Part shown: piece after piece, positions 19,847-62,670 of the stretch | Layout of the letters: every line of letters begins with the position of its first letter | How positions within the stretch are numbered: position 1 is the first letter of the stretch | From: a virus | Reading direction: 5' to 3' (one strand) | Length of the DNA: 64,000 nt | Virus record (IMG/VR): IMGVR_UViG_3300045963_000147 | Span: 1 to 64,000 of that record | Position numbers and translations under genes: made by a program | The notes under the pieces: model-generated | The model's database searches: none | What the model was told of the DNA's origin: nothing | What the model saw: only the letters and a program-made list of their open reading frames with translations

Positions 19847-19992
19847 TGGCAGGGGTTCGGAAGGCTCTTTTTCATAGGTATTCCTTCTATTCTTCCATTC
19901 TTCCAATCTTTTCTTTTAGAAAGTAAAAGAAGAAGAGAAGAAGAGGAGTAAGAAAGAGAGAGAGTGTTTCCTATAGAAAAGGTTGGCGCCGG
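19847..19992. repeat. Copy 1 of an inverted ~140-bp element, purine/pyrimidine-biased
   Basis: The stretch begins GGCAGGGGTTCGGAAGGCTC, then TTTTTCATAGGTATTCC, then CTATTCTTCCATTCTTCC and a long AG-rich run up to CCTATAGAAAAGGTT. Its reverse complement recurs at 62531-62670: GATTGGAAGAAT, two GAAGAAT-type repeats, ACCTAT and AGCCTTCCGAACCCCTGCC are all shared in order. There is no coding capacity. The strong strand bias would favour easy melting or unusual DNA structure. Confidence 0.75.
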
Positions 19993-20052
19993 CCAGCGGA
20001 AGCGGCCAGTCATATAGATGACTTGATCCCCATGCCTTTCGCTGCGTGAAGG

Positions 20053-20084
20053 ACAAAAGGACACCGCCTTGCGGCGATGTCCTT
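20053..20084 (-). terminator. Intrinsic terminator after gene 20091-21191
   Basis: Arms GGACACCGCC (59-68 of the 20000 block) and GGCGATGTCC (73-82) form a ten-base stem with a TTGC loop. On the minus strand it is followed by TTTTGTCC. It sits directly after the stop of the gene ending at 20091, so transcription stops before the inverted element. Confidence 0.7.
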
Positions 20085-20090
20085 GCCCGA

Positions 20091-21191
20091 TCAGGGCATG
20101 TCGTTGGGCTGTTCCGCCAGGGACAGTTCAGCCTTCAGGTTCTCCTGCTTCACCACCCGGGCTTTGGGCTTGGCCTTGCTTGCCTTGGCGTCGAGCTTGG
20201 CCTCCTTCTCCACCGACTCACCGACTTGCGCTACGAACTTGCCCACCGGCGAGTTGTCCTTGCGCAGCGACGGCACAGGCTTGCCGGTGGGTTCGATCTT
20301 CGGCACCAGCTTGTCACCGATGTTCGCGTAGCGGTGGTGCGTCGTGGCCAGATGGCAGGCTTCGACGAAGGCGACGTGCAGGCGCAGCGTGGCATCGAAT
20401 TCGAACGCACTGCGCGCACGCTTCATGATGCTGGCGCGGAACTTGGCCAGACGTTCCGGCGTCGCGTAGCTGTTGAGCAGCGACAGTTGCGTTTGCACGT
20501 CGAGCTTGTCGAACTCGATAGCATCGCCACGGTCGGCCAAGTCGATGATGTTCATCACCGAGCTGACGTGCTTGCCCCAGGCTGCGTGCTGACCGGACAG
20601 TTCACGCACGTTGAGCACGTCGTACTCCTGGCGCGTCATCAGCGGCTTGTTGCCGGTTTCGCTGAGGTAGCACACCCACAGGTGGTCCAATTTCCAGTGA
20701 TCCACCGGCGCAGGCTTGGCGACAGCGTCCAGCGTGGACAGCCAGTTGGTGACAGGCGCCTTGGATTCACCCATCAGGCTGACGAGGTAGTCGTCGCACG
20801 TGCGCTTGTAATGCAGCAACTTGCTCAGGTCATCGCACATCGAGCGCCGCGTGCCGCCGGCTTCTTCGAAGGATTGGGCGGCAGCTTCGAGGGAGTCGAG
20901 GTGCGACATTGCGTCGTTGTACGTGTCGATCGAGCCGATGCCGTCGCGCTTGTTGGCCCACGAGTCGGCTTTGCCGTACGGTTCGTCGCAGTTGCGCAGG
21001 TCGGATGCGAAGCCGTTGGCAACCATGCCGGCCAGCCGTCCGATGCGGAACGCCAGACCGCCGGTGACGCTGAACATCACGGCGACGCCGGCTTCGGCCG
21101 GCAGGAACTTCTTGATCAGGTCGAGAAGGTCGGGGTGGGGGATGATGATGGATTTGGTCATGTCGCCGGTTTTCACTTGATGGGTAGCCAT
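20091..21191 (-). CDS. Hypothetical 366-residue protein
   Basis: The product has 366 residues (MATHQVKTGDMTKSIIIPHP...). ATG 21191 is used; an internal ATG (MTKSIIIPH) is possible. It is mostly helical, with a small Gly-rich hydrophobic patch FSVTGGLAFRIGRLAGMVAN, and ends in a long Lys/Ala-rich flexible tail (KAKPKARVVKQENLKAELSL). It is followed by a strong terminator, so it forms its own unit. No family was recognised. Confidence 0.65.
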   Translation of the reverse strand: MATHQVKTGDMTKSIIIPHPDLLDLIKKFLPAEAGVAVMFSVTGGLAFRIGRLAGMVANGFASDLRNCDEPYGKADSWANKRDGIGSIDTYNDAMSHLDSLEAAAQSFEEAGGTRRSMCDDLSKLLHYKRTCDDYLVSLMGESKAPVTNWLSTLDAVAKPAPVDHWKLDHLWVCYLSETGNKPLMTRQEYDVLNVRELSGQHAAWGKHVSSVMNIIDLADRGDAIEFDKLDVQTQLSLLNSYATPERLAKFRASIMKRARSAFEFDATLRLHVAFVEACHLATTHHRYANIGDKLVPKIEPTGKPVPSLRKDNSPVGKFVAQVGESVEKEAKLDAKASKAKPKARVVKQENLKAELSLAEQPNDMP

Positions 21192-21424
21192 GGTTTGCTT
21201 TCGAGAGAGTTGAGGTTTGAGACGATGTGCTGGTTACGGTGTCCAGCATGCAGTGGGTGCATCGCTTGACGGTCTGAGCTGATTCCCAAGATCAACTCGT
21301 GAGCGTTGCGTAGCTCACAGCCCCTGTGCTTCGCGCTGCGGGTAAACGTCCTGGGTTCATTTATCACTCGCTCAGGCGTGCGAGTTGTCAGAGCGCTGGA
21401 GTTGGATGTCCAGCGCTTACTGAT
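21192..21424. other. Intergenic stretch with hairpins, no gene seen
   Basis: A weak leftward frame crosses this stretch but has no ribosome site and poor composition. At 21393-21418 AGCGCTGGA and TCCAGCGCT form a perfect nine-base stem just after the stop of the next small gene, and GTGAGC/GCTCAC pair at about 21299-21318. They probably end or slow leftward transcripts. Confidence 0.4.
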
Positions 21425-21640
21425 TCAGATGCGACTCAAGATGATCTTGGTCGCTTCGGCCTCGGTGCAGTTCAGCAGCTCGGCGAGGTGTTCGACTTTC
21501 TTGTCGAACATCACGTCAGGCGAGTCCGCGGCTTCGTAGATTTCAAACGCCTTCTGGTCGGCGAGTGACAGATGGCTGAAGGGGACGACGCTGATGGCAA
21601 CGGGTTGGCGCTTCACGCGCAGGGCGGCGAGTCTGGACAT
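21425..21640 (-). CDS. Small hypothetical protein, cassette gene 1
   Basis: The product has 71 residues from ATG 21640, preceded by AGGAGA at good spacing (MSRLAALRVKRQPVAISVVP). The rest is a helical VEHLAELLNCTEAEATKIIL domain. It is flanked by a hairpin on each side. It belongs to a series of small single-gene units in which four of the hairpins share a sequence. Function unknown. Confidence 0.65.
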   Translation of the reverse strand: MSRLAALRVKRQPVAISVVPFSHLSLADQKAFEIYEAADSPDVMFDKKVEHLAELLNCTEAEATKIILSRI

Positions 21641-21667
21641 GGAATCTCCTAAGCAGCACACGCTGCA

Positions 21668-21702
21668 CAAAGCCAAAAAGAAAGGCCCGCGCAAGCGGGC
21701 CT
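21668..21702 (-). terminator. Repeated hairpin terminator, copy A
   Basis: GGCCCGC, GCAA loop, GCGGGCC, and on the minus strand a following TTTCTTTTTGGCTTTGTGC. The 35-base block is repeated exactly at 22027-22062. It ends the gene 21706-21999. Confidence 0.75.
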
Positions 21703-21705
21703 ATT

Positions 21706-21999
21706 TCAATAGCCGCGACTGGCGTAGTCCCAGCCCAGGCGTCGTACCTTGTCCATGTGCAAGTTGTCGTTGCACGTGTAGCGACGATCAGCGTTGTGGC
21801 TGCGCGCAAGCTCGATCAATTGAGCGTGCGTGCGGAAACGCCAACCGAGTGAACTCCAGCCGTTGATCGTGGATTCGCTGGGGCAACCCCACGGCGTTGA
21901 CAGTTCGACGATTGAGCCATCCGTCATTTCGGCGAGGACTTTGTAGTCGACGCATATCAGCACGTTGCTGACGATGGTTGGTTGATTGGTGTAGGTCAT
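21706..21999 (-). CDS. Small hypothetical protein, cassette gene 2
   Basis: The product has 97 residues (MTYTNQPTIVSNVLICVDYK...). It is beta-rich (VLAEMTDGSIVELSTPWGCP), then helical, and ends RRLGWDYASRGY. GGAAG lies before the start. The unit is closed by hairpin copy A and preceded by copy B, so it can be gained or lost as a block. Function unknown. Confidence 0.65.
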   Translation of the reverse strand: MTYTNQPTIVSNVLICVDYKVLAEMTDGSIVELSTPWGCPSESTINGWSSLGWRFRTHAQLIELARSHNADRRYTCNDNLHMDKVRRLGWDYASRGY

Positions 22000-22022
22000 A
22001 AGCTTCCAAGCAGCGACGACCG

Positions 22023-22064
22023 CTGCACAAAGCCAAAAAGAAAGGCCCGCGCAAGCGGGCCTAT
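22023..22064 (-). terminator. Repeated hairpin terminator, copy B
   Basis: The sequence CTGCACAAAGCCAAAAAG followed by AAAGGCCCGCGCAAGCGGGC is identical to copy A. It comes before the inverted repeat at 22074-22107. Confidence 0.7.
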
Positions 22065-22073
22065 CAGACGGTG

Positions 22074-22135
22074 CGCACAGGTCTACATCAATGTGCAGAC
22101 CTGTGCGTACACAGGAGGGAGTGCTGCACGCTCCC
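22074..22135. other. Two hairpins and a tiny reading frame between cassette genes
   Basis: CGCACAGGTCT (22074-22084) and AGACCTGTGCG (22097-22107) form a perfect eleven-base stem. GGGAG/CTCCC arms at 22117-22135 make a second hairpin. On the minus strand upstream of them lies a very short frame MTQQTDQAGWYP, ending before the hairpins. It could be a leader peptide or the stump of a lost gene. Confidence 0.45.
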
Positions 22136-22204
22136 CTACGGATACCAACCCGCTTGATCGGTCTGTTGAGTCATCGCATTTGTGTTCTCCGGTAGCCCTG
22201 GTGT

Positions 22205-22468
22205 TCACGAGCCGTTGAGCGAGCCGGTCAGCGACTGGGCCTGATCGACCGCCTTGTTCATGGCCTCGTTCAACTCCAGGATGGCGTTGAGTGCTTCGTG
22301 CTTGTTGGCGCAGTTGAAGTGCGCCTTCATCGCTTCCCAATAGAGGTCCAGGATCGACGCGCCGAGCGCGCTGCGGATGTGGATTGGGTCATCGCCCTTG
22401 TGCAGGCCGTTGGCATACAGCAGGTTGAGGGCGGTGACTTCGTCCAGGTCGGGGCGATGGATGCTCAT
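22205..22468 (-). CDS. Small hypothetical protein, cassette gene 3
   Basis: The product has 87 residues from ATG 22468 with GGAG upstream (MSIHRPDLDEVTALNLLYAN). The rest is helical (SILDLYWEAMKAHFNCANKH, LELNEAMNKAVDQAQSLTG). Its start overlaps the stop of the membrane protein gene (ATGA), so these two form a coupled pair. No family was recognised. Confidence 0.65.
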   Translation of the reverse strand: MSIHRPDLDEVTALNLLYANGLHKGDDPIHIRSALGASILDLYWEAMKAHFNCANKHEALNAILELNEAMNKAVDQAQSLTGSLNGS

Positions 22469-22779: not shown

Positions 22780-22971
22780 AATTAAATTCTCCTCGTCCCC
22801 CGTGCAGGGTACTGAGTTATTCGTGTGATGGTTGAGTTTCGCCAATCATCACGCCTCGTTTGGTTTGGCTTCGCCAAACCTCACGACCCATGAGGTGCCC
22901 CATGCAGCCTCCGGGTTTGACGTCGCGCAGCGACGAGCCGGGCCGGGCTTTCGCCCAACCCCGGCCCGCCG
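22780..22971. other. Intergenic stretch with several hairpins
   Basis: GTTTGGC and GCCAAAC (about 22865-22890) form a hairpin, GTCGC and GCGAC another (about 22923-22934), and GGCCGGGC with CCCGGCC a third. They lie after the stop of gene 22972-23238 and probably end its transcript. No gene is seen. Confidence 0.4.
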
Positions 22972-23238: not shown

Positions 23239-23276
23239 TTCGCTCTCCAGTAGTGACCGACGACATGCCGGTCTGC

Positions 23277-23314
23277 ACAAAGACGAGAAGAAAGGACCGC
23301 GCAAGCGGTCCTCA
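23277..23314 (-). terminator. Repeated hairpin terminator, copy C
   Basis: GGACCGC, GCAA loop, GCGGTCC with TTTCTTCTCGTC following on the minus strand. Compared with copies A and B, one base changes on each arm so that pairing is kept, which shows that the hairpin itself is under selection. It ends gene 23321-23644. Confidence 0.7.
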
Positions 23315-23320
23315 CCTAGC

Positions 23321-23644: not shown

Positions 23645-23680
23645 GGGGCGCTCCAGATCAAGGACAGCCAAAGCGGCTGC

Positions 23681-23718
23681 ACAAAGACGAGAAGGAAGGC
23701 CCGCGCAAGCGGACCTTG
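23681..23718 (-). terminator. Repeated hairpin terminator, copy D
   Basis: GGCCCGC, GCAA loop, GCGGACC. One mismatch weakens the stem compared with copy A. The flank ACAAAGACGAGAAG is shared with copy C. It ends the gene 23722-23895. Confidence 0.6.
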
Positions 23719-24292: not shown

Positions 24293-24874
24293 ATGTCTCG
24301 CACTTCGATCTTAGATCACAAGCCCCAGCACAAGCTGCCCAAACGGGGTTCCCAAATCGCCACGCCGGTCGAGAAGTCCGTCCGCAAATACCTCGACACC
24401 AGCGACCACGCCGCAGCGGAACTGATCGACCCGAACAAGCCGCTGACCTCTCAGCAGCTTGCCTTCGCGAAAGCCAAGGCCACCGGCGAATCCACCGCGT
24501 CCGCAGCCCTCCGCGCCGGGTACTCCCAGGAGGCCATCGGCTTCCGCCTGATCCGCATGCCCAACGTCTTGCGCGCCGTCGAAGCGGAACGCCGCCTCTA
24601 CGAAGAGGCCTGCCAGATGTCCCGCAAGAAGGTCATGGACATGCTCATCGAGTCCTTCGACATGGCCAAGCTGATGGCCGAGCCTGCGTCCATGGTCAGC
24701 GCCGCCCGAGAAATCGGGAAGATGTGCGGCTACTACGAGCCGGTCAAGATCAAGATGGACATGACCGTCAATGGCGAGGTGGCCGTGCGCCAGCTCAACG
24801 CCATGAGCGACTCCGACCTCCTGAAGCTCATCACCGGCGGCGTCCAGCCGGTCCTGCCCGGCCCAGCAGCATGA
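24293..24874 (+). CDS. Terminase small subunit
   Basis: The product has 193 residues. A variable N-terminal leader is followed by KPLTSQQLAFAKAKATGEST and AALRAGYSQEA (about residues 62-93), the helix-turn-helix of Terminase_2-type small subunits, which recognise the packaging site. The middle helix AVEAERRLYEEACQMSRKKV and the end of the domain (EIGKMCGYYEPVKIKM) match that family. It is placed 0.85 kb upstream of the large subunit. The start is close to the promoter-like motif with little room for a ribosome site, so a short leader is likely. Confidence 0.85.
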   Translation: MSRTSILDHKPQHKLPKRGSQIATPVEKSVRKYLDTSDHAAAELIDPNKPLTSQQLAFAKAKATGESTASAALRAGYSQEAIGFRLIRMPNVLRAVEAERRLYEEACQMSRKKVMDMLIESFDMAKLMAEPASMVSAAREIGKMCGYYEPVKIKMDMTVNGEVAVRQLNAMSDSDLLKLITGGVQPVLPGPAA

Positions 24875-25206
24875 GCTGGATGGACATCAACAACCCAGAG
24901 TTGTGGGTCCAGGTGGTGCGCCGCCCCGCACCCATCGAGACGCGGATCGAGTGGGCTGATTACGACCAAGAATTCGGCCAGCGCAAAGTCCTGACCGGCA
25001 CCCTCCGCTTGCACTGCGGTCATGTGATCGCCGTCCAGTCGACCGTCGACCGCCGCGATTGGCGCGATGCCGGCCCGCTGCTGAAGGAGAGCCTGACCCG
25101 GCGGCTCCGCCACGCCGAGGAACACCACGACTGCGAAGCCTTCGAGCAGGCAGAGACAGTCAGGCGCGTCACCGAGAAGCTCACCCGGAGAACCCATGCG
25201 CACTGA
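24871..25206 (+). CDS. Small protein with VTEKLTR near C-terminus
   Basis: The product has 111 residues (MSWMDINNPELWVQVVRRPA...). The ATG overlaps the stop of the small terminase gene (ATGA). A strand-rich middle has RKVLTGTLRLHCGHVIAVQS and CxxH residues. It ends RRVTEKLTRRTHAH, showing the recurring VTxKLTR peptide, here followed by six extra residues. It sits inside the packaging operon. Function unknown. Confidence 0.6.
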   Translation: MSWMDINNPELWVQVVRRPAPIETRIEWADYDQEFGQRKVLTGTLRLHCGHVIAVQSTVDRRDWRDAGPLLKESLTRRLRHAEEHHDCEAFEQAETVRRVTEKLTRRTHAH

Positions 25207-25732
25207 CCGAGCCCGCCGCCAGCGCCAGCTTGACGACATCACTGCCGCGCGGCTCAAGCGCGACAAGCGCGACCAGCGCGAGAGAGCGCGCATTCGAGAG
25301 CACGCCCACAACGCCCAGGTCGTCGCCGCCGTCACTGCCAAGCTGACTGCCGCCCGGCCCAAGACCATGTTCGAAGAGGGCGGGGCGTTCGGACAGCCCC
25401 TGTCCAACTCGTTCATCGCCAAGATGTACGCGAACATAGTCGCCAACAAGATGGCCGGCAAGTCGATCTTCGCGAACGCGAACGTGAGCAGCGGTGCAGC
25501 AATTCAGGCCATGATCCACCGCCCGCGCACCCTGGTCATCGACGACCTCATCGCGGCCGACAAGCTCATCGACTACGGCACCGCGAAGAACCCCAGCTTC
25601 AGCCAGCGCCAGGGCCTGAAGCCGCTCGACGAGGCCGTCCACGACAACTGGGCGGACGCCTCGAAGTACCTCATCGGCTGGGACTTCGGCGTCAAGGGCT
25701 CCCCGGCCGTCGTCATCGCCAGTGGCAGCTAA
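25196..25732 (+). CDS. Hypothetical protein between terminase genes
   Basis: The product has 178 residues (MRTDRARRQRQLDDITAARL...). A highly basic N-terminal helix (about residues 1-45) ends AAVTAKLTAARPK, again showing VTxKLT. The rest is helical with NSFIAKMYANIVANKMAGKS and ends GWDFGVKGSPAVVIASGS. GGAG precedes ATG 25196. It may help the terminase bind DNA or the portal; unknown. Confidence 0.55.
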   Translation: MRTDRARRQRQLDDITAARLKRDKRDQRERARIREHAHNAQVVAAVTAKLTAARPKTMFEEGGAFGQPLSNSFIAKMYANIVANKMAGKSIFANANVSSGAAIQAMIHRPRTLVIDDLIAADKLIDYGTAKNPSFSQRQGLKPLDEAVHDNWADASKYLIGWDFGVKGSPAVVIASGS

Positions 25733-27443
25733 GCCCAAGCCGAAACCCGCCCCCAAAGCCAAAGCTCCGCCTCTCGAAGCCCCTGACCGCTTCGATCCCG
25801 ACCAGGAAGCGCAGCGCGCCTACGCCGCCCAGAGCCCCGAGGCCACACAAGCTCTGCCGCCGCTGACCCCGGCCCACCTCTCCGCCCAGAAGGAGATGGC
25901 CAGCCGGGTGCTGTCCCGCCGCCGGCTGCTGCCGTTCGTGCAGCGGATGAACGAGCGCTACGACGCCGGGTGGGTTCACGCCGACATCTGCCGGCGCCTG
26001 GAGAAGTTCAGCGACGACGTCGCCGCCGGCCTCAGCCCCCGCCTGATGATCCTGATGCCGCCCCGGCACGGCAAGAGCGAGCTGGCGTCTCGGATGTTCC
26101 CGCCCTGGCACCTGGGCCGGCACCCTGACCACGAGTTCATCGCCTGCTCGTACAACTTGTCCCTGGCGATGGGCTTCAGCCGCAAGGTCAAGCAGATCAT
26201 CGACGACCCGGTGTACGAGGGCGTGTTCCCGACGAAACTGGACCCGAACAACCAGTCCACCGAGGAGTGGGGCATCGCCGGCCAGCGCGGAGGCTACGTC
26301 GCAGCCGGTATCGGCGGGCCAATCACCGGCAAGGGCGCGCACGTCCTGGTCATCGACGACCCGGTGAAGAACGCCGAGGAGGCCGACAGCGCGGACGGCC
26401 GCGAGAAGGTGTGGGAGTGGTACCTGTCCACCGCCTACACCCGGCTGGCCCCTGGCGGCGGCGTGCTGGTCATCCAGACGTGGTGGCACGACGACGACCT
26501 CGCCGGCCGGCTCCAGCAGATGATGAAGAGCGGCGAGGAGGACGAGGACATCGACCAGTTCGAGGTCGTCAAGTACCCCGCCATCGCCATCACCGACGAG
26601 TTCCTGGCCCCCGACGGCTCGATCGTCGCCGTCCCCGAGGCTGCGAACTCGGCCCACTACTCCCTCCTGCGCCTGAAGGGCGAGGCGCTGCACCCCGCGC
26701 GCTACGACCTGAAGAAGCTGAACAAGATTCGCGCCCTGAACCGCAAGGACGACGGGGCGGACGGCCGGTGGTGGAGCGCCCTGTACCAGCAGAACCCGGT
26801 CCCTGACGACGGCGGCTATTTCCAGAAGGCCCAGTTCAAGCGCGCGCCGGTGCCGCACGTGTCGAAAGCCAACGTGTTCATCGCCTGGGACTTCGCCATC
26901 AGCGAGAAGAAGCAGAACGACTACACCGTGGGCGTCGTCGGGCTTCAGGACGACGACGACATGCTGCACATCGCCGAGGTCGTGAGATTCAAGTCCGGCG
27001 ATTCGTTCTTCATCGTAGAATCTATTCTGAATCTATGTTCGAGATGGCCCAGCGCCTCGTTGCAGCTCGGCTTCGAGGACGGTCAGATTTACCGCGCAAT
27101 CGAATCTCTACTTTCGAAACGGATGAGAGAACGCAGGATGTACCCGGCCATCGAGGTGCTCAAGCCCATCACCGACAAGCTCGCTCGTGCCCGCCCGCTC
27201 CAGGGCCGGATGCAGCAGGGCATGGTGAGCTTCAGCGCCAACGCCGAGTGGTACGACGACACGCGCAACGAGATGCTGCGCTTCCCGGCCGGCGTACACG
27301 ACGACCAAGTGGACGCCCTGGCCTGGATGACCAAGATGGCCGTCGGCCGCGCTGCGCCGAGGAAGCCGAAGGCCCAACAGCTCAAGTCCTGGCGCGACAA
27401 GCTCAAGGGCCTGGGCGGCGCCAACACCCACATGGCCGCATAG
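25722..27443 (+). CDS. Terminase large subunit
   Basis: The product has 573 residues. The ATPase has Walker A LMPPRHGKSE (residues 111-120) and Walker B HVLVIDDP (Asp212-Asp213). The nuclease has IAWDFAIS (Asp390), GFEDGQ (Glu452/Asp453) and VHDDQVDAL. It pumps and cuts DNA during packaging. The start is a GTG (25722) inside the end of the gene before; no ATG is available until residue 59, which would remove conserved sequence. Around 27005-27130 the gene uses AT-rich, non-preferred codons (AGA, CTA, TCT), unlike the rest. Confidence 0.93.
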   Translation: MAAKPKPKPAPKAKAPPLEAPDRFDPDQEAQRAYAAQSPEATQALPPLTPAHLSAQKEMASRVLSRRRLLPFVQRMNERYDAGWVHADICRRLEKFSDDVAAGLSPRLMILMPPRHGKSELASRMFPPWHLGRHPDHEFIACSYNLSLAMGFSRKVKQIIDDPVYEGVFPTKLDPNNQSTEEWGIAGQRGGYVAAGIGGPITGKGAHVLVIDDPVKNAEEADSADGREKVWEWYLSTAYTRLAPGGGVLVIQTWWHDDDLAGRLQQMMKSGEEDEDIDQFEVVKYPAIAITDEFLAPDGSIVAVPEAANSAHYSLLRLKGEALHPARYDLKKLNKIRALNRKDDGADGRWWSALYQQNPVPDDGGYFQKAQFKRAPVPHVSKANVFIAWDFAISEKKQNDYTVGVVGLQDDDDMLHIAEVVRFKSGDSFFIVESILNLCSRWPSASLQLGFEDGQIYRAIESLLSKRMRERRMYPAIEVLKPITDKLARARPLQGRMQQGMVSFSANAEWYDDTRNEMLRFPAGVHDDQVDALAWMTKMAVGRAAPRKPKAQQLKSWRDKLKGLGGANTHMAA

Positions 27444-52339: not shown

Positions 52340-55300
52340 TGGCCACGCTGCGCGACCTGGGCGTTACCCCCACCAGCCCGCAGGGGCCTACGACTCTGCG
52401 CGACCTGGGCGTCGTGGCTAACGCTCCGATGGATGCCGCCAGCCAGCAGTTCATGGACCAGTCCGCCGCCAACGGGATGGGCCAGCTCCGCAAGGGCTTC
52501 ACCTCTGGCCTCTACGGCGGCGACGCCAACGCCCTGGCGTCTCAGGTCTCGTCGCTGCGCGCGTCGGGCCGCACCGCTGAGGCCGACGCCCTGATGCCGC
52601 AGATCGAAGCGGCGAATCAGCGCGCAGCCACGTTCGCGCCGGCCGAGCCCAGCCTCTACAACATCGGCCTGGACGGCGCACTGCGCAACCCGGGCCGGGT
52701 GCTGGACTGGGGCCTGGGCGCCGCAGGGCAGGGCACGGCCAGCATGGTCGAGCCGATCGGCGCTGAACTCGTCGTCGCTGGCGCCGGCAAGGTGCTGGGT
52801 GCGCTGCCGTGGGCGCCGGCCAAGATGCTGGGCAAGGGCCTCCAGTACGCTGCGCCGCTCGCCGCCGGGGCGCTGAACTACCGCCAGAACAAGGGCGAGT
52901 TCGTGCAGGACGCCTGGAAAGACCCGGCGATCATGGCGAAGACGCCGCAGGAGATTGAGAACGCCGCCATGGTCCACGGCGCCCTGGCTGGCTCGCTGGA
53001 CACGGCCCTGCCGCACATGGTCTCGAACCGGCTGCTGGGTAAGGGCGGCATCAAGGCCCTGGAGGGCCTCTCCAAGCCCGCGAAGGTGGGTCTGGACCTG
53101 TTGGGTGAGGGTACGACCGAAACGATGCAGGAGGGCATCAAGAAGGGCGCGCTGAGCTACCTGAACCCCAACCGGGACAAGAGCGGCGACCTGGGCGACT
53201 ACGTGGACTCGTTCGCGGGTGGCGTGGCCGGCGCCGGCCCGGTCAGCGGGCTGAGTCACCTCGCCGCTTCCGGCCACGCCCGGGTGGCCACGCCCGACGG
53301 CGCGAGCAACGACGTGAGCGGCAAGCCCGCTGCGCCAGCACCCGAGGACAAGAGCCTCAAGGGCACGATCCTGAAGCGCGCCAAGGAGCAGAAGGTCGAC
53401 GGGAAAGAGCTGGACGACTGGCACAACCTGATGAGCGGGCAGGACGCCGAGGGGAACGTCTCTGGCGCGACCATCCTGGCACAGGAGGACGCGGTCAAGA
53501 AGGAGCTGGAGGCCCGCGCGGGTCGCGGCGACCAGGAAGCAGCGAAGCACCTGGACACCATCAACAACGACCCGGGCGACGGGTCTGCGGACGGCGCGGT
53601 CCACAACGCCGCGACCTACATCAAGGGCGACGGCTCGCCGGCCGCACGCGCCAAGCTCATCGAGGCTTTCAACGGCCGCAAGAAGAACGAGCAGGGCGCG
53701 AAGTCCTCGCCCGAGGAAGAGCTGGCCGCGCGCCTCGCCGAGGACGCTGTTCCTGAGCGAATGAAGTACGAGTCGGACGACAAGGGCTACTTCACGAACC
53801 TGCGGGCGAAGGCACGCGACATCGGCGAGAACATCGCTGTGCTGGCGCGCAGCTACAAGACCGAGAAGGTCGACTCGTTCTCCGACGGCCTGCTCGACTC
53901 CGTGGCCCATGAGGCGGTGGACCTGTGGGGCGGCAAGAACGCCCAGGCCACCGTTGCCAGGATCGCCACGGCGCTGGGCGTCGAGAAGACCCCGGCGATG
54001 CAGCAGCTCCAGCAGGCGCTGGCCGGGTCTGAGCAGCGCAAGCAGTGGAACGAGACGCGCACCACGAACCGCACCAACGCGGCGGAGCGCATCGTCAAGC
54101 TCATCCCGACTGAGCAGAAGCTCAAGCTCCACAAGGCCGGCATCGACCTGACGGACCCGGGCGTGGCCGACTCGATGCTCCACGCGACGCAGAAGTTCCT
54201 GGCGAAGGACAGCCCGCACGCGCGCATCGAGTTCAACAAGTTGATGGGCGGCGCGAAGGTCGCCGACGCGGTGCTGAACTTCGTCAAGACTTCGAAGATC
54301 GAAGAACGAGACCCGGCAGAACACAAGCCGGGAGACTCCCGGGAAAAGGACGGGAAAGAGGACACGACCCCCGCCGAGAGCGACGACGTGACCCAGCCCG
54401 GGGCTTCGCCGTCAGACGACTTGTCGAACGAGAACGAAGACGACAAGTGGGTGCTGGACGGCGCCAACAAGAACATGGCGAAGGCCCCTGGTGCCAAGCT
54501 GTACGGTCTGCGCGGTGAGACCCACCTTCGCGACGGCCTGGAGTCCCACCCCTTCACCGAGAACGCCAACAAGCGCCTGCCATCGCTCGTCACCGAGGAC
54601 CAGACCGACGAAGGCGACGGCAAGAACTCACTGCTCGGCATGCAGGAGCGGGCGCACAAGTCGCTGGGTGGCGTGCTGGACGACGAGGTCAAGCAGAGCG
54701 GCACGTTCGGCGTGGGCTCGTACCGGGTCCGCGCCGTCTCTGCGAAGGAGGTCATGGACAACCACCGCGTCTCGATCCCCCAGCGGATCAACCTGCTGCG
54801 CCGGTACCTCGCCCAAGAGCCTGCCTCGAAGCTCGCTACCGAAGCCGCGAAGAAAGCCAAGGCTGCGGGCGCTCCCGACAAGGAGGTGCGTAAAGTACGT
54901 GAGGCGGCGTACAACAAGGCCTACGACGAGGCGTTCAACAGTGAACACTTCGACGCCGTGCGCAGGCTCGGCCTGGAGATTTACAAGGGCCACGTCGCCC
55001 CGACGATCGGCGAAGACCGTGGCACCTCCGACGACATCAAGCGCGCGGGTGACAGCAAGATCACTGCTGCCAAGCGTGAGCGGCTCCGCCAGGAGCTGAC
55101 ACGCATGGCGACGCAGGTAGGCGTCGAAGAATTCGGCGGCGAGAACGCCGACCTCTCGACCCTGGCAAACGGTTTCTTCAGCAACCGCTTCCTCGTCACG
55201 GCCGAGCAGATGGCTGAGAAGGATCAGCTCCGTCTGAACGTGGCTGAAGTCGTGAGCATGATCCGCCACGGTGCTGAGTTGGAGAACTACACCGACCAGT

Positions 55301-58300
55301 TCGGGGACACGAAGGCCGACGTCCTGGCCGGCATGAACCTGATTCGCTTTCCGTCCCCCTACGCCACGGCCAAGGACGGCATTGCGGTGGTGCCAGCAGG
55401 CGACCTCGTGTCGTGGGCGAACCGCAATCGCACTGAGTTCGAAGACGACGACAGCGGCTCGAAGAAGCCGTATGCCTACCGCGACTCGTTGATGGAAGCC
55501 ATCGGGGCGCTGGTGGTTGACGACTTTGCCACTGCGCTGCCGCACGTCATCAACGCCAAAGGGAAAGAGGAACACTTCGGCAACAAGAAGCACCCGTTCC
55601 CGCCGTCGATGAAGCTGGGCCGCTCCGAGCAGTGGCGCCTGGACTACAGGGATGAGATGCGGCAGGCCGAAGCTGCCGAGCGGTCCGCCGCCGAAGCCCG
55701 TGACGGTCGCCCGATGAAGGCCGGCGAGAACACACGTGATGCACGCAGCGGGCTGCTGCACCAGGAGCGGATGGCGAAGGAGCAGGGGCCTGACCCGGCA
55801 GTCGACAAAGACAGTGGTGTCCCCGACGAGTTCCGACACCCTGGTGCTGAACGCGGTGCAGCGGAACGTCGCGCCACGCCGCCTGAAGCCGGCGCACAGG
55901 GTGAGATGTTCGAGGGCGGCACGAAGTCGAACAATGGCGCTCTGAAGAGCTACCGAAGCGGCAGCGAGATTCGCCAAGAGCATGCCGGCGTCCCAGAGAC
56001 CGCAACTCACGAGCCTCGCGGCTCAGCCGAGCGCTTCTGGGACGCACCCGAGCTGGACGACAAGCGCACCGATCGCGCCGACGCTGTGCCGTCCGAGCGA
56101 GTGCGCAAGCAGAAGAAGGGTGTGCCGACGGAGTTCACCGATCAGCAGCAACAGTCTTCTGTCGCCCGCTCGGCTCAAGACAAGGTCGAGACCTTGACGG
56201 CCACCAACGCGATGAGTCGTGCGGCAGTGATCGCCGGGCACGTGCTGCGCATGTTCGACATGCTCCAGCCGACGCCGATGAAAGTCGGCAAGGAAGACCG
56301 CGTCATCAAGAGCGACGTGCAGGCGGACCCGGCTCGTGCGTACGAGATGCTGAAGCAGTTGGGCCGTGCGCTCGACCGCCCGAGCTACATCGACGAGAAA
56401 AGCTCGAAGGGGTTGGAGGGCAAGGACCAGCTCGCCGGTGGCAAGTTCTACGCTGCCCCGCTCGCGCACATCTTGACGCCGAAGAACTCGAACGTCCTGG
56501 TGAGCATAGCGCGCGACCCAGCGAAGGCGAAGGCCACGCTGCGGGCAATGCGCGGCAAGGTCGCCCAGGCTCTGCTGGACGCTAAGCAGAGCGAGATTGC
56601 TGCGCACGACCGGCTGACGCTGGCGAAGTTGTTGACCGGCCAGGAAGACCTGAAGTTCGGCAAGCCGATGAAGGAGGCGCTGGAGAAGCTGCTGCCGGCG
56701 CCGAAGGTCGAGGTGAAGACTGAGTCCGCTGCTGCGTCGGCGCCGCGCACCCAGGCTGAGTCGGCTGCACATCAGGCGAAGGTGAACGACCCAGCGAACA
56801 TCGCCAGGACCAAGGCGGCGCGCGTCGACGATGAGCCGGCGTTTGCGCCCTCCCTTGCGAAGCAGACATCCTGGGTCGCCGACAAACTGAACCAGTCCCT
56901 CGGCGCGCTCACCGCCGCCATCAAAGGCTTCACGGGCGAGCAACTGCTGGCCCTGGGCGACGTGATGCAGCAGGACGTGCCGGCGGGCGCCAGCAAGGTG
57001 CGCTGGGGCAACGCCCGGCAGCACATCGAGGACCGCATCTACGACACGGTGACTGCTGAGCAGGTGCTTGCGCACGAGGCGAAGACGGCCGAGCCCGCCC
57101 CTTCAAAGGGCGACGTCTCCGAACAAGCCCGCGCGCTTATGGCCGAGAAGAAACACCTGTGGAGCCCTGAAGCATTCGACGACCAGGGACACAGCGCCTA
57201 CAACACGGGCGTCGATTCCCTCCTGCAAGACGCTGAGGATGACACCTTCGCGTTCGACCGCAAGACCGGCGCCCCAAACATGACCGTCTACAAGAAGTTC
57301 ATGGTCGCTGTCGAGAAGCGCAAGCCTGAACTGAAGGCTTTTGCCCAGGCCGTCTGGGACCGCTCGGCCGCTCAAGCAGCACACGTCGCCAAGGCAGATG
57401 CGTTCTTCCTGAAGAACCGCGAAGCGCTCGCCAACCACCCCGACGCGATGAAGAACTTCGCCGGGGACATCAAGCGCGTCGGGCAAGCACAAGCGCGCGG
57501 GAACGAAGGGAAGGTGTGGGGCATCCACGCCGACCTGATGCAGCAGATGTTCGAGCGCCGTGGAGATGAGGCGTGGCGCAAGGCTCAGATCGCGGACAAG
57601 GAAAAGCGCCTCGCGAAGTACATGGCCGAGAGCGGCAAGGCGACCAGCGCGACCGGGTTCATGAGCATCATCCAGAAGGAAATTGACCTGTTGAAGGCCA
57701 ACGACCTCCAGGGGATGATTACTTCTGCGGCTAAGTTCCGGGAGCCGAACGATTTCCGCCGCAGCAATTACCCAGGTTTCCCCGAGCCGAACCTCAAGGC
57801 CGAACCGACGACGAAGCCCGCCCCTCTCTCCGAGATGGAGCGCGACGCGAGTGCGCGCAAGCTGAACGAGATGGGCGCCCACCCGCTGCTGACCGGCGTC
57901 ACTGCCACGGTCGCTGACACCCAGTCGATCATGCGCATGCTGGGCTTCAAGGCTGCGCCGCCGAAGTTCGCAGACGTGGCCGGCAAGCTCCTGGCCGACC
58001 CGAACATCAACATCGCCAAGTTCGTCAAGGACAGCGCCGAGGCGTTGAGCCACATCCTGACGAAGGGGCCGCAGGCCAAAGAACTGCGCGAGGCTCTGTC
58101 CAGCGACACGTGGTTCGCGCAGCGCGCCAAGATTACTGCCAACCTCGTGAAGGGCGGGATGATGCGCGGCGATGCACTCGTCGAGTCCTACCGCGTCCTG
58201 ACCGAACAGGCGCTGATGGGCGAGTTGGCCGCACGCACGAAAGCAGACCAGAGCGTCATCGCCCGCCTGATGCAGGCGGTGCAGGACTTCGTCTCGCGCT

Positions 58301-61300
58301 TCAAGGAGATGACGGGCTCAGCCGAGTTCGCCGACCTCGTGCGCAACCACCTGAACAAGGCCGTCGAAGCTGCCAACACGCCGGCGCAGTTGAAGGAGGG
58401 CTACAAGAAGGTCTCGTTCCAGGAGGCGATTGACGCTGACAAGCAGTCGGCCCGGGTGCTGGCGCACATGAGCCTGAACCCGAATGTCGCCATCACCGGC
58501 AGCATCGTCCTGGCCGAGAGCGGCTCGATCTACCGCGACGCGAAGAACATGCTGCACGACCTGGACTTCCTGGTCACGGGCACGAAGGACGCAGCCGAAG
58601 CGTGGCTGCGCAAGGGCTTCCCCGACGCCACCCAGGTCTACGACTTCAACACCAGCAACGGCAAGGTGGACAGCTTCCTCGTGCCGCCGGCCGGCGCGAC
58701 GATCGAGAACATCAAGCGCGAGTTCGGAGAGAAGGGCCGGGTGCTGGGCTTCGAGGTCCACAAGGACGGCAAGGTGATCGGCCGCACGTGGAACGACGAG
58801 AAGGGCGAGCACAAGGAGGGCGATGCCGGCACGTTCGTTGACCTGTTCACGAACAGCGGCACCGAAGTTGCCTCGACCATCCCCTTCACGGTCGGCGGCA
58901 AGCAGTTGTCGATCAAGGCTGCGAACCCGGCGGCGATCTTCAACGCGAAGCTCAACATGGGCCGCGAGAAGGACATGAACGACTACGGCCGCTACGTGCC
59001 GAATGTCGGGCGCCAGCTCAACGAGCAAGCTGCGCCGACCGCAGCCGACATTCAGTCCTCAGCCAACGCCGCCCCCAAAGACGAGGCCATCGCCAAAGTC
59101 AAGGCCTACGTCGCCAAGGTGCTTGGCCCGAAAGTCCGTGTCGCCTTCGAGGAAGTCTTCGACGCCGCTGGCGAGTGGATCGACGCCGAGAACCTGATGA
59201 AGATCGCCCTCAACGGCGGGCCGGGCATGGAGACCGTCGCCCACCACGAGGCGATGCACGCCTTCTTCAGCCGGCTGATGAAGCACAACCCCGAAGCCGC
59301 CGAGAAGCTCAAGCGCGTGCTGGGTGAGGGTGAGACCTACGAGCGCCTGAAGGCCCTGCTCCACGGCGAGACGAAGGCCCTGGAAGCCATGGCCCGTGAC
59401 CCTGAGGAGCGCGTCGCCTACGCATTCCAGTTCTGGGCTGCTGGCCGGCTCGAAGTGGACAAGCCGGCGACGACGATGTTCGCCAAGTTTCGCCGGCTGC
59501 TGCGCAAGGTGTTCGGCATGGTGCGCGAAAGCGAGACCGCGCTGGACATCATGACCGCCTTCCACGACGGCAAGCTGGCCGACGAGAACGCCGCCGGCAA
59601 GGCCATCAAGAAGATCATGGACCGCGAGACGTGGAACGAGGACCAGAAGCGCAAAGCCGACCGTCTGTTCCAGCGCATGCACTACGAGCTGGACCCGTCG
59701 ATCGACATCTTCCGCAAGGAAGACCTCAGCTCGATCATCCGTGACCTGGGCAACTCGTTCTTCACCAACCCGGGCGAAGAGGCTGACGGCCAGCACGAGC
59801 CGGGCTTCATCAATGCGCGCGGCACGATGATGCGCAAGTTCTCGAACTGGCTCGACCGGGCCGTCGGCACGCGCACGACGCTGAACGACTCGGACCGCTT
59901 GGCGGTGATCGAGGCGCTGCAAGGTGAGAACGGCCCGAAGAACCTTCACCTCGCCGCGCAGAAGCAGGCCTACGCCGACGTCCACGCGCTGCTGGAGCGC
60001 TTCCACAAGTACGCCACGAGCCGCGGCATGAAGCTGGAGTACATCAGCGACTACTTCCCGCGCGTCTGGGACTTGTCGAAGCTCATCGAAGGTGGCGGCA
60101 AGGAGAAGTTCGCCGCGATGGTGAACCAGAGCAAGTACGACAAGATCGTCGCCGACATGCTGGCCGGCATCAACCAGAAGCTGCCTGCTGCACAGCACAA
60201 GACGAAGGAGCAGTTGATCGAGGCCATGCACCGGCAGTTGATCGACCGCAACGGCGTGGACGAGAACGACATGCTGGCCGAGTCCGACATGGGCGACCTG
60301 ATCTTCAAGCCGTTCTTCGCGTCAGGCAAGGAGCGCAACTTCAAGTGGCTCGACAAGAACGATGTCCGGGATTTCCTGGAGAAAGACCTCATCGGTGCCA
60401 TGTCGCGCTACCTCCAGCAGGGCGTGCGCGCCGCTGAGTTCTCGCACAAGTTCGGCGAGGGTGGCCAGAAGCTGAAGAAGGCGCTCGTGATGAAGGGCGA
60501 CCTGGAGATGGACCCCTCGACCGGCAAGCTGGAGCCGCGCCCCACGTACGGCCCGGCCGAGAACCAGATGTACAGCGCCCTGGCCGAGAAGGGCATCAAG
60601 GGCGACGAGGCGAAGGCCATGGTGGACCGCCGCATGCGCAACGCGCGCAACGCCGCTGCGGCCATGGAGGGCTCGCTGGGCGGTGACATCAGCGACAGCT
60701 TCCGCAAGGCCTCCAGCGCCATGATCGCCTACCAGAACCTGCGCCTGCTGCCGCTGAGCCTGTTCGCTGCCTTCGGCGACATCGCCGGCATTGCAGCGCG
60801 CAACGACAAGGACGGCTGGACGGGCGCCTACGAGGCCTTCATCGGCGGCATGAAGGACGTGTTCGCCAACTGGAAGCGCAACGCCAGCGACATGCCCGGC
60901 CCGCGCAAGGTGAGCGTCATGGAGAACATCGCTGAGGCCATCGGCGCGGTGGACAGCCATATGTTCCTCGAACAGGTCGGCAAGGCCCACACCAGCGAGT
61001 TCATGACCGACACGGCGCGCAACATCGGCCGCAAGCTGTTCATGGTCAACGGCTTGACCGCCTGGGACCGCAGCATGCGCGTGACGGCCACGAAGTTCGC
61101 CATGCAGTTCCTGGAGCGCCACAAGAGCCTGCCCGACAAGCAGCACAGCGCCCGGTGGTTGGCCGAGGTCGGCCTGAAGCCCGAGGACATCACCCTGAAT
61201 GCCGACGGGAAGCTGGTCTGGGACCGCCGAGAGTTGGCCGCGATGCGCATGAAGCCCGGCATGAACGAGAAGCAGCAGAGCGCGGTCATGGAGCAGGCCA

Positions 61301-61836
61301 CAGCAGATACTGAGAAGGTCCACAACGCCCTGGTGCGGTGGGTCGAGGGTGCTGTGCTGTCGCCCAATGCCGGCCTGCGCCCGAGCCGCGCCAGCGACCC
61401 GCACTTCGCGGTGCTGTACCACCTCAAGCAGTTCACCTACGCGATGCACCACGTCGTCCTGAAGCGCGCCTGGAACGAGGCACGTCAGGGGAACTCGAAC
61501 CCGATCGGCGCCCTGGCCGGCGTCATCCCCGTGATGATCGTGTCGGACATCACCAAGGGCCTGCTCACCGGCGGCGGCTCGTTGCCGGACTACATGAAGT
61601 CGTGGAACGCAGCCGACTGGATCGAGCACGGCGCGAACCGTGGCGGGCTGGCCGGCAAGTACCAGCTCGCGCTCGACGCGGTGCGCGACCCGGTGAGCAT
61701 CATGGGGCCGACGGTGGAGCAGTTCAGCAAGCTGGTGATGAACCCGGGCGACATCGGCAAGAACCTGCTCGACGCGGTGCCGGGTGTGCGCATGGTTAGC
61801 GGCGCTGCCAGCCACATCAGAGAAGTGGCGGACTGA
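52339..61836 (+). CDS. Giant multi-domain virion-type protein (3165 residues)
   Basis: The gene covers 9.5 kb. It starts with two TLRDLGV repeats, then an Ala/Gly-rich hydrophobic zone (about residues 130-190). A polymerase-beta-like nucleotidyltransferase motif is visible: GS at 2062-2063, then Asp2074-x-Asp2076, then KVDSFLV. A zincin-like motif HHEAMH (His2303, Glu2304, His2307) follows with DPEERVAYAFQ. The C-terminal 500 residues are helical (MIAYQNLRLLPLSLFAAFGD, KQFTYAMHHVVLKRAWNEAR). This fits the large polyvalent proteins thought to be packed in phage heads and injected. No T7/N4-type RNA polymerase motif was seen. Confidence 0.85.
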   Translation: MATLRDLGVTPTSPQGPTTLRDLGVVANAPMDAASQQFMDQSAANGMGQLRKGFTSGLYGGDANALASQVSSLRASGRTAEADALMPQIEAANQRAATFAPAEPSLYNIGLDGALRNPGRVLDWGLGAAGQGTASMVEPIGAELVVAGAGKVLGALPWAPAKMLGKGLQYAAPLAAGALNYRQNKGEFVQDAWKDPAIMAKTPQEIENAAMVHGALAGSLDTALPHMVSNRLLGKGGIKALEGLSKPAKVGLDLLGEGTTETMQEGIKKGALSYLNPNRDKSGDLGDYVDSFAGGVAGAGPVSGLSHLAASGHARVATPDGASNDVSGKPAAPAPEDKSLKGTILKRAKEQKVDGKELDDWHNLMSGQDAEGNVSGATILAQEDAVKKELEARAGRGDQEAAKHLDTINNDPGDGSADGAVHNAATYIKGDGSPAARAKLIEAFNGRKKNEQGAKSSPEEELAARLAEDAVPERMKYESDDKGYFTNLRAKARDIGENIAVLARSYKTEKVDSFSDGLLDSVAHEAVDLWGGKNAQATVARIATALGVEKTPAMQQLQQALAGSEQRKQWNETRTTNRTNAAERIVKLIPTEQKLKLHKAGIDLTDPGVADSMLHATQKFLAKDSPHARIEFNKLMGGAKVADAVLNFVKTSKIEERDPAEHKPGDSREKDGKEDTTPAESDDVTQPGASPSDDLSNENEDDKWVLDGANKNMAKAPGAKLYGLRGETHLRDGLESHPFTENANKRLPSLVTEDQTDEGDGKNSLLGMQERAHKSLGGVLDDEVKQSGTFGVGSYRVRAVSAKEVMDNHRVSIPQRINLLRRYLAQEPASKLATEAAKKAKAAGAPDKEVRKVREAAYNKAYDEAFNSEHFDAVRRLGLEIYKGHVAPTIGEDRGTSDDIKRAGDSKITAAKRERLRQELTRMATQVGVEEFGGENADLSTLANGFFSNRFLVTAEQMAEKDQLRLNVAEVVSMIRHGAELENYTDQFGDTKADVLAGMNLIRFPSPYATAKDGIAVVPAGDLVSWANRNRTEFEDDDSGSKKPYAYRDSLMEAIGALVVDDFATALPHVINAKGKEEHFGNKKHPFPPSMKLGRSEQWRLDYRDEMRQAEAAERSAAEARDGRPMKAGENTRDARSGLLHQERMAKEQGPDPAVDKDSGVPDEFRHPGAERGAAERRATPPEAGAQGEMFEGGTKSNNGALKSYRSGSEIRQEHAGVPETATHEPRGSAERFWDAPELDDKRTDRADAVPSERVRKQKKGVPTEFTDQQQQSSVARSAQDKVETLTATNAMSRAAVIAGHVLRMFDMLQPTPMKVGKEDRVIKSDVQADPARAYEMLKQLGRALDRPSYIDEKSSKGLEGKDQLAGGKFYAAPLAHILTPKNSNVLVSIARDPAKAKATLRAMRGKVAQALLDAKQSEIAAHDRLTLAKLLTGQEDLKFGKPMKEALEKLLPAPKVEVKTESAAASAPRTQAESAAHQAKVNDPANIARTKAARVDDEPAFAPSLAKQTSWVADKLNQSLGALTAAIKGFTGEQLLALGDVMQQDVPAGASKVRWGNARQHIEDRIYDTVTAEQVLAHEAKTAEPAPSKGDVSEQARALMAEKKHLWSPEAFDDQGHSAYNTGVDSLLQDAEDDTFAFDRKTGAPNMTVYKKFMVAVEKRKPELKAFAQAVWDRSAAQAAHVAKADAFFLKNREALANHPDAMKNFAGDIKRVGQAQARGNEGKVWGIHADLMQQMFERRGDEAWRKAQIADKEKRLAKYMAESGKATSATGFMSIIQKEIDLLKANDLQGMITSAAKFREPNDFRRSNYPGFPEPNLKAEPTTKPAPLSEMERDASARKLNEMGAHPLLTGVTATVADTQSIMRMLGFKAAPPKFADVAGKLLADPNINIAKFVKDSAEALSHILTKGPQAKELREALSSDTWFAQRAKITANLVKGGMMRGDALVESYRVLTEQALMGELAARTKADQSVIARLMQAVQDFVSRFKEMTGSAEFADLVRNHLNKAVEAANTPAQLKEGYKKVSFQEAIDADKQSARVLAHMSLNPNVAITGSIVLAESGSIYRDAKNMLHDLDFLVTGTKDAAEAWLRKGFPDATQVYDFNTSNGKVDSFLVPPAGATIENIKREFGEKGRVLGFEVHKDGKVIGRTWNDEKGEHKEGDAGTFVDLFTNSGTEVASTIPFTVGGKQLSIKAANPAAIFNAKLNMGREKDMNDYGRYVPNVGRQLNEQAAPTAADIQSSANAAPKDEAIAKVKAYVAKVLGPKVRVAFEEVFDAAGEWIDAENLMKIALNGGPGMETVAHHEAMHAFFSRLMKHNPEAAEKLKRVLGEGETYERLKALLHGETKALEAMARDPEERVAYAFQFWAAGRLEVDKPATTMFAKFRRLLRKVFGMVRESETALDIMTAFHDGKLADENAAGKAIKKIMDRETWNEDQKRKADRLFQRMHYELDPSIDIFRKEDLSSIIRDLGNSFFTNPGEEADGQHEPGFINARGTMMRKFSNWLDRAVGTRTTLNDSDRLAVIEALQGENGPKNLHLAAQKQAYADVHALLERFHKYATSRGMKLEYISDYFPRVWDLSKLIEGGGKEKFAAMVNQSKYDKIVADMLAGINQKLPAAQHKTKEQLIEAMHRQLIDRNGVDENDMLAESDMGDLIFKPFFASGKERNFKWLDKNDVRDFLEKDLIGAMSRYLQQGVRAAEFSHKFGEGGQKLKKALVMKGDLEMDPSTGKLEPRPTYGPAENQMYSALAEKGIKGDEAKAMVDRRMRNARNAAAAMEGSLGGDISDSFRKASSAMIAYQNLRLLPLSLFAAFGDIAGIAARNDKDGWTGAYEAFIGGMKDVFANWKRNASDMPGPRKVSVMENIAEAIGAVDSHMFLEQVGKAHTSEFMTDTARNIGRKLFMVNGLTAWDRSMRVTATKFAMQFLERHKSLPDKQHSARWLAEVGLKPEDITLNADGKLVWDRRELAAMRMKPGMNEKQQSAVMEQATADTEKVHNALVRWVEGAVLSPNAGLRPSRASDPHFAVLYHLKQFTYAMHHVVLKRAWNEARQGNSNPIGALAGVIPVMIVSDITKGLLTGGGSLPDYMKSWNAADWIEHGANRGGLAGKYQLALDAVRDPVSIMGPTVEQFSKLVMNPGDIGKNLLDAVPGVRMVSGAASHIREVAD

Positions 61837-61880
61837 TCGCCCACAAGCGATAAAGCCTCGCCGCAGGGCCTGTGCGCTCA

Positions 61881-61923
61881 ATCGCCTCTGGCCGATAAAG
61901 TGCGTTTATCGGCCAGAGGCGAT
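61881..61923. terminator. Perfect 19-bp hairpin between convergent arms
   Basis: ATCGCCTCTGGCCGATAAA (61881-61899), loop GTGCG, then TTTATCGGCCAGAGGCGAT. It lies 45 bases after the giant gene, before the leftward genes. There is no long T-run on either strand, so it may act as a bidirectional stop, an RNA-processing site or a DNA recognition site. Confidence 0.65.
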
Positions 61924-61991
61924 ACCCTTTCCCCGCGCCCCATTCCCAGAGAGTACGAAGAAAAGAGAACCGGCGCTGAGGCCGGCGTGGA

Positions 61992-62234
61992 TCAGAGGAA
62001 GGCTTCGGTGATGGCAATCTCGACGATGATGCGGGGAAGCCAGGACCGTGGATACAGAGCGAAGCAGTGCGAGCCCGGCCCCATGGTCTTCGGGCGATTC
62101 TCCTTGGGCGGCTGGCGACCGCTCTCAAGGAAATAGATTTCCTGCATGCGGTTGCCGACGGCCCATGACAATCTCTTGCTGGGGACTCGCTTCAGCATAG
62201 AGAACACTTCAGGGACGGTGATGCGAGTGTCCAT
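61992..62234 (-). CDS. Small hypothetical protein
   Basis: The product has 80 residues (MDTRITVPEVFSMLKRVPSK...). It has a basic middle (SGRQPPKENRPKTMGPGSHC) and a hydrophobic end (PRSWLPRIIVEIAITEAFL). It follows the gene at 62238 with a 3-base gap. No family was recognised. Confidence 0.6.
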   Translation of the reverse strand: MDTRITVPEVFSMLKRVPSKRLSWAVGNRMQEIYFLESGRQPPKENRPKTMGPGSHCFALYPRSWLPRIIVEIAITEAFL

Positions 62235-62237
62235 GAG

Positions 62238-62507
62238 TTATTCCAGGTCGATGGTGGTGGACTCCCAAGTCTCGTCGGTCTGAACGACGACGTACTTGGT
62301 GCGAGGGTTGGTGGGGTCAGCCTTGTAGCGCGACTTGATCGGCCCGATGGTCTTCATGCTCATCTCGTTGATCGCGAGCTGGCGCTTTGAAATCTCGCCG
62401 TGGTCATTGATCGCGTGCCGACAGACAAGGTCGTAGGGCACACGCTTGAGCGCCATGCGGGCCTCTGGCGTCATGCGCAAGGTGCCGAGGAGGAAGTTCG
62501 TCTGCAT
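62238..62507 (-). CDS. Small hypothetical protein
   Basis: The product has 89 residues (MQTNFLLGTLRMTPEARMAL...). A helix LKRVPYDLVCRHAINDHGEI is followed by a strand-rich end (TKYVVVQTDETWESTTIDLE). It lies directly downstream of the second copy of the inverted element, as does the primase-helicase for the first copy. No family was recognised. Confidence 0.6.
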   Translation of the reverse strand: MQTNFLLGTLRMTPEARMALKRVPYDLVCRHAINDHGEISKRQLAINEMSMKTIGPIKSRYKADPTNPRTKYVVVQTDETWESTTIDLE

Positions 62508-62530
62508 GCCTAAGTTGCTTCCCTTTTTGG

Positions 62531-62670
62531 CGCGGGAACCTTTTCTACAGGAATACTACTACCCTCTCTCCTTCTACTCTTCTTCTTTCTCTTGACTCAG
62601 AGTTTAGATTGGAAGAATAGAAGAATGGAAGAATACCTATAAAAAAGAGCCTTCCGAACCCCTGCCGAAA
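62531..62670. repeat. Copy 2 of the inverted ~140-bp element
   Basis: It runs from AACCTTTTCTACAGGAA through a pyrimidine-rich CTCTCTCCTTCTACTCTTC stretch to GATTGGAAGAATAGAAGAAT, ACCTATAAAAAAG and AGCCTTCCGAACCCCTGCC. The reverse complement of 19847-19992 carries the same blocks in the same order. No gene is encoded. A TTGACT sequence at 62592 could be a -35 element. Confidence 0.75.

Follow-up and report, generated by a model that had tools for sequence, protein, structure and literature searches.

Two copies of an AT-rich intergenic element

The stretch of DNA analyzed here, hereafter the window, comprises positions 1 to 64,000 of the 68,749-bp virus record IMGVR_UViG_3300045963_000147. 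An earlier interpretation made from the letters alone (the sequence-only reading) had pointed to a pair of similar noncoding elements of ~140 bp in this window, and both copies were found where it had placed them. Copy 1 (putative origin 1) lies at 19848-19986 on the plus strand, between an upstream leftward gene (20091-21191, minus strand) and the gene of an NrS-1-like primase-helicase (PrimPol). Copy 2 (putative origin 2) lies at 62535-62668 on the minus strand, between the leftward open reading frames (ORFs) 62684-62899 and 62238-62507 and ~0.7 kb past the end of a giant virion gene. Each copy sits directly upstream of a leftward ORF (19789 and 62507, respectively), as previously described. 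Set in opposite orientation, the copies have in common GGCAGGGGTTCGGAAGGCTCTTTTT(C/T)ATAGGTATT, TTCTTCC-type repeats, AGAAGAAGAG and TTCCT(A/G)TAGAAAAGGTT, and when aligned they are near-identical at the ends with a diverged centre, in agreement with the sequence-only reading. The strand given there for these strings needs correction: they are found, in the order quoted, on the minus strand of 19847-19992 and on the plus strand of 62531-62670.

When copy 1 was used as a query over the whole 68,749-bp record, copy 2 was the sole non-self match (79% identity, E 6.8e-26). The local alignment score of the two copies was 81, while 500 dinucleotide shuffles gave a mean of 12.6 and a maximum of 23. 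Among 120-bp segments of the record, the copies also hold the top two places for AT content (z 5.5 and 4.6; next 3.1), and this AT-richness, together with the strand bias that had been proposed to aid melting, is compatible with an origin. The two copies had been described as bracketing the structural arm. The record ends overlap by ~250 bp, however, and circular permutation is seen among the relatives, so the copies divide a circle: the structural genes lie on one arc (43 kb) and the replication genes on the other (26 kb). The description therefore holds for the structural arm, but the replication arm is bracketed just as much.

Iterons and flanking inverted sites

Copy 1 contains tandem 8-bp iterons (CTTCTATT CTTCCATT CTTCCAAT; 19884-19907, plus strand) and a degenerate fourth unit (CTTTTCTT; 19908-19915). 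Degenerate iterons of opposite orientation in its right half (CTTCTCTTCTTCTTTT; 19925-19940, minus strand) give the element an imperfect dyad symmetry. A left outer inverted site, reading CGGAAG on the plus strand and CTTCCG on the minus strand, is located at 19858-19863 (minus strand), and a right one (CGGAAG on the plus strand) at 19997-20002 (minus strand). Copy 2 has the tandem iterons CTTCCATT CTTCTATT CTTCCAAT at 62608-62631 (minus strand), an outer inverted site at 62651-62656 (plus strand; CGGAAG on the minus strand) and a second at 62518-62522 (plus strand; GGAAG on the minus strand). The words CTTCCATT and CTTCTATT occur twice each in the whole genome, and the iteron words are almost confined to the two copies.

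Relatives were gathered via the primase, and an AT-rich intergenic element was identified at the corresponding place in them. Over 36 elements from these relatives, identity at a lag of 8 bp is prominent (z 17.7 versus at most 9.6 at other lags). The 8-bp unit follows the pattern (C/G)TT(A/C)..., with spellings that differ by phage and include CTTCC, CTTAC, CTTAT, GTTCT and GTTAC. The shared layout consists of tandem 8-bp units, an AT-rich core and single inverted sites on either side. In the flanks, the iteron core in the phage's own spelling was found 65 times in inverted orientation and 9 times on the same strand, with such sites at 31 of 35 loci; when spellings were swapped among phages, the mean was 26.5 and the maximum 49 over 5000 permutations. 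Strict inverted-array symmetry of the core itself is strong in the window and in L021, L022 and L030 but weak when averaged over the elements (mean z 0.66 versus 0.16), and our claim of symmetry is therefore restricted to the flanking inverted sites.

Conservation and orientation of the two copies

All 11 well-assembled near relatives carry two copies, the first directly upstream of the primase gene and the second shortly past the giant virion gene. The sequence-only reading had named absence from close relatives as grounds for giving up the element, and the element is present. A second copy was also found in G015, G032, G033 and G034, and in a Herminiimonas contig, where it has the same GTTCT spelling as the first. 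The unit spelling varies among phages but is common to both copies of one genome and to their flanking sites; even the window phage and its 86%-identical relative L005 differ in their iteron spellings. In each of the 11 genomes, none of 500 shuffles matched as well as the two copies match each other, and copies from the same genome are closer than copies from different lineages (trace 654.5; largest of 20,000 permutations 546). No near match turned up among cultured phages when the element or the DNA around it was used as a nucleotide query, and viral and genome contigs held no exact occurrence of the left box, because the spelling differs among relatives. In the cultured Pseudomonas aeruginosa phage KPP25 (NC_024123), 13 of 15 GTTACGA sites fall within two intergenic regions. 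These iteron-rich regions (26219-26894 and 58070-58633) are unannotated and are candidate replication origins; the KPP25 counterpart of copy 1 is located elsewhere in the genome, unlike the copy next to the PrimPol gene in the window and its relatives.

The relative orientation of the copies is inverted in 5 of the 11 relatives and direct in 6, so the inverted arrangement emphasized in the sequence-only reading is not conserved. This bears on the proposal that the copies are recombination sites at which a recombinase flips the 42-kb arm, or that they serve as att or resolution sites. The copies are inverted in this genome, and a tyrosine integrase gene lies 1.4 kb past copy 2 (G000 64024-65061). 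However, an integrase is encoded in only 7 of the 17 other genomes compared while the elements occur in all near relatives, and a layout of core site plus arm sites is absent. With the variable orientation, site-specific recombination and inversion are unsupported, and we regard this as the least probable of the explanations considered here.

A structured RNA, or a terminator or RNase III site, encoded twice would account for the good folding of the window copies on one strand (z -2.2 and -3.6). Over 47 elements, however, which strand folds better is random (26 of 47), control windows fold only modestly worse, and the spelling changes run through the iterons. Rfam and tRNA searches of the element gave no match. 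We rejected a structured RNA on the lack of a consistent strand over the 47 elements, and consider this explanation very improbable.

The neighbouring primase-helicase is a putative initiator

In the window, ~60 bp separate copy 1 from the start of the PrimPol gene (17378-19789, minus strand), and the element holds the corresponding place in relatives. The 803-aa gene product has archaeo-eukaryotic primase (AEP) motifs, an SF3/AAA+ helicase and a C-terminal winged-helix-like domain, and matches phrog_24712, primase families and DUF5906. The N-terminal AEP primase domain is assigned from its DxD and H motifs and the primase-family matches; D92, D94 and H148 are invariant among 41 PrimPol sequences, as is the GxxGTGKG Walker motif. 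The SF3/AAA+ assignment draws on this motif, on DUF5906 and on the match of the helicase part to the C-terminal region of the NrS-1 primase (6k9c; E 1.2e-26 against the PDB, Foldseek TM 0.79), and the fold search also reaches the structure of the SaPI5 initiator PriRep1 (7pds). The full-length model has a pLDDT of 88. The C-terminal domain modelled alone has a pLDDT of 93 and a helix-strand-helix-helix-strand-strand topology, and its named Foldseek matches in the PDB are mostly winged-helix proteins, none with E <0.05. No other recognized initiator family was found among the replication-side proteins scanned. The phage also encodes a family-A polymerase (4854-6992), a SNF2-type helicase, nucleases, a ligase and an integrase. 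In L040, L041 and L169 the primase frame is ~1065-1080 aa long and carries an in-frame insert of ~270 aa that is possibly an intein.

Residue 755 tracks iteron base 4

On the primase tree, base 4 of the iteron has switched from C to A or back at least 7 times. Among the 803 positions of the protein, residue 755, in the first wing strand, is the best separator of the two iteron classes: in the discovery set, whose iteron classes were set before residues were inspected, it is basic with (C/G)TTC iterons (16 of 16) and non-basic with (C/G)TTA iterons (13 of 13). With added rows, the rule holds in 40 of 42 phages across 7 class changes. Label histories were simulated 1000 times under the same tree, number of changes and class balance, each scored by its best result among 2439 column/property splits, and none matched the observed coupling. 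Six sequences from bacterial genome contigs (L236, L237, L238, L239, L241 and L242) obey the rule and L243 does not. A basic residue facing C, with G on the opposite strand, would be a chemically sensible contact.

This coupling also bears on the idea that the elements are centromere-like partition sites or packaging sites. Tandem repeats at two places would suit parS-like or pac-like sites, yet the spelling is coupled with the primase-helicase, and ParA/ParB were not found among the conserved replication-side proteins scanned, a scan that did not cover every ORF. The packaging role raised in the sequence-only reading is further opposed by the position of the terminase genes (24293-27443), which neither copy adjoins. 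We give partition or packaging sites a very slim chance.

A model of paired iteron origins

In both copies tandem repeats lie beside an AT-rich stretch, and a candidate initiator gene is close to copy 1. Given the 8-bp iterons, the AT-rich core, the adjacent primase-helicase gene and the coupling of spelling and protein, we favour the first of the options in the sequence-only reading, a pair of replication origins, over recombination, inversion and packaging. The elements are likely a pair of iteron-type replication origins, or initiator-binding sites with at least one origin among them, recognized by the phage's own PrimPol, and within this proposal two origins are the most likely form. The C-terminal winged-helix-like domain of PrimPol would bind the 8-bp tandem array together with the inverted sites that flank it. 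Rings of the SF3 helicase may then assemble from the oppositely oriented sites and open the AT-rich core, as suggested by SaPI Rep, SV40 T antigen and papillomavirus E1, after which the N-terminal primase domain would prime the exposed strand and the family-A polymerase would extend the primer. Copy 2, 26 kb away across the replication module, would be bound by the same initiator and could be a second or late origin, or a fork barrier leading to a switch to concatemers, a role proposed for oriR of phage SPP1. We also put forward, as a proposal of slightly less than even probability, that this is a large and mostly uncultured phage family with two dispersed origins served by one PrimPol, in which the 8-bp word has repeatedly been rewritten (at least 7 base-4 changes), on each occasion at both origins and their flanks, largely via one wing residue that is basic for C and non-basic for A; origin specificity would then be a fast-evolving, decodable lock and key among related phages.

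Several observations weigh against paired origins recognized by PrimPol. We infer PrimPol binding to the element from the statistics of residue 755 and base 4, and the isolated C-terminal domain gives no Foldseek match that is significant by itself (best E 0.1). The rule has exceptions in L040, which combines CTTAC iterons with R755, and in the distant L039 and L243. In held-out rows, one per clade, the association runs in the same direction but is non-significant (4/1 versus 2/6, Fisher p = 0.10), and part of the iteron classes were called by eye. A clear second copy was not seen in the distant G019, G020, G022 and phiA008 or in a Variovorax contig, nor in the incomplete record G028. Lastly, the GC skew switches near copy 1, at a divergent promoter region, with a sign opposite to that usual for an origin; the skew is uninformative on the origin because it is confounded by divergent transcription.

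A variant of the origin model, which we consider somewhat unlikely, is that copy 1 is the origin and copy 2 a barrier to replication forks formed by bound initiator, or a switch to late replication. Phage SPP1 has two similarly built sites bound by one protein, and copy 2 is far from copy 1, at the junction between leftward genes and the end of the rightward late operon. Since iterons, AT core and flanking sites are kept in both copies, the sequence does not mark copy 2 as a mere barrier.

The elements might instead be operators through which a regulator, possibly PrimPol itself, controls the PrimPol gene and the operon end near copy 2. Initiators often autoregulate, and copy 1 adjoins a promoter-like sequence of the PrimPol gene, TTGTCG-17-TACACT (19818-19846, minus strand), recognized by eye, negative in a consensus scan and also present in L005. 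That consensus scan found no promoter inside copy 1 or copy 2. Copy 2, however, is without a recognizable promoter, and the 89-aa ORF that it precedes is poorly conserved. Conservation extends to the AT core, which operators do not need, and the orientation of the element relative to the genes varies. We therefore judge operators improbable. An intrinsic-terminator-like hairpin at the end of the upstream leftward gene (20057-20084, minus strand) would screen copy 1 from transcription of that gene.

Comparison with known replication systems

The C-terminal domain of SaPI Rep and SCCmec Cch2 binds iterons (PMC7581432). As in those systems, the predicted initiator is a D5/primase-helicase-type helicase with short repeats near its own gene. 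The SaPI and SCC origins lie downstream of the initiator gene, whereas the element here is upstream, has an 8-bp unit and occurs in two copies tens of kb apart in a phage of ~68 kb; the sequence similarity of PrimPol to SaPI5 Rep is remote. In pRN1, an initiator with primase, SF3 and winged-helix domains is encoded beside a ~100-nt stem-loop origin (PMC4234260). Replicons of this type (Sulfolobus plasmids and phage BIP-1) share with the window phage the domain order and an inverted-repeat origin beside the gene. The pRN1 origin is one stem-loop and has no iterons, whereas the present elements come in two copies, are dominated by 8-bp iterons and have an imperfect stem-loop without strand bias; the 47 elements show no consistent fold or strand preference of the kind expected of a conserved long pRN1-type stem-loop.

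The NrS-1 PrimPol, to which the helicase part is closest among solved structures (6k9c), requires an 8-nt recognition sequence that is present twice, once per strand (PMC7102993). The two NrS-1 sites, likened to ours by description, lie together in mid-genome with no described iteron array, whereas the phage studied here has arrays in two separate ~140-bp elements and its own family-A polymerase. SPP1 has two iteron/AT-rich origins, oriL and oriR, and one binding protein (PMC6316719), and oriR has been proposed to act as a fork barrier (PMC6316719, PMC3485210). The likeness lies in two separated sites of similar build, direct repeats plus an AT-rich unwinding element, and one phage protein. 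The SPP1 protein gp38 differs in being no primase-helicase itself; it acts as the loader of a DnaB-type helicase. Family-wide coevolution of spelling is not reported for SPP1 in the literature examined.

Other features of the genome

The tyrosine integrase gene is on the minus strand (L003:4024-5061), and because of it the phage is probably temperate. Some relatives lie within long Variovorax, Herminiimonas and Janthinobacterium contigs and may be prophages; Herminiimonas sp. CN and Variovorax sp. J22R133 are strains whose contigs bear a phage of this type. The hosts are soil or water bacteria. A 44-bp repeat with a GC hairpin (CTGCACAAAGCCAAAAAGAAAGGCCCGCGCAAGCGGGCCTAT) occurs at 21661-21704, 22021-22064, 23271-23314 and 23675-23718 of the window, with two copies identical; these repeats look like repeated terminators between small early genes. 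On the replication arm, 10404-11618 and 12800-13798 (minus strand) encode a DUF2201 metallopeptidase/VWA-like protein near an AAA ATPase, a MoxR/VWA-type pair. The giant virion gene (52339-61836, plus strand) encodes a 3165-aa protein, of which only the C-terminus matches a known virion family (phrog_30152).

Implications

Each ingredient of the proposed system is already known; their combination, with two dispersed PrimPol origins, concerted change of the recognition word at both and a residue that tracks it, we did not find in the open-licence literature searched. Replication of the widespread KPP25-like, Burkholderiales-associated phages was not mapped in the literature searched. If the origin model is correct, it would give these phages the number and place of their origins and a testable recognition rule. 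Matched initiator-iteron pairs, those of the window phage and L005 among them, would be available as a natural series for following a change of specificity in which two distant origins stay in step. The self-sufficient primase-helicase initiator of the pRN1, NrS-1 and SaPI type would be extended to larger phages with two origins.

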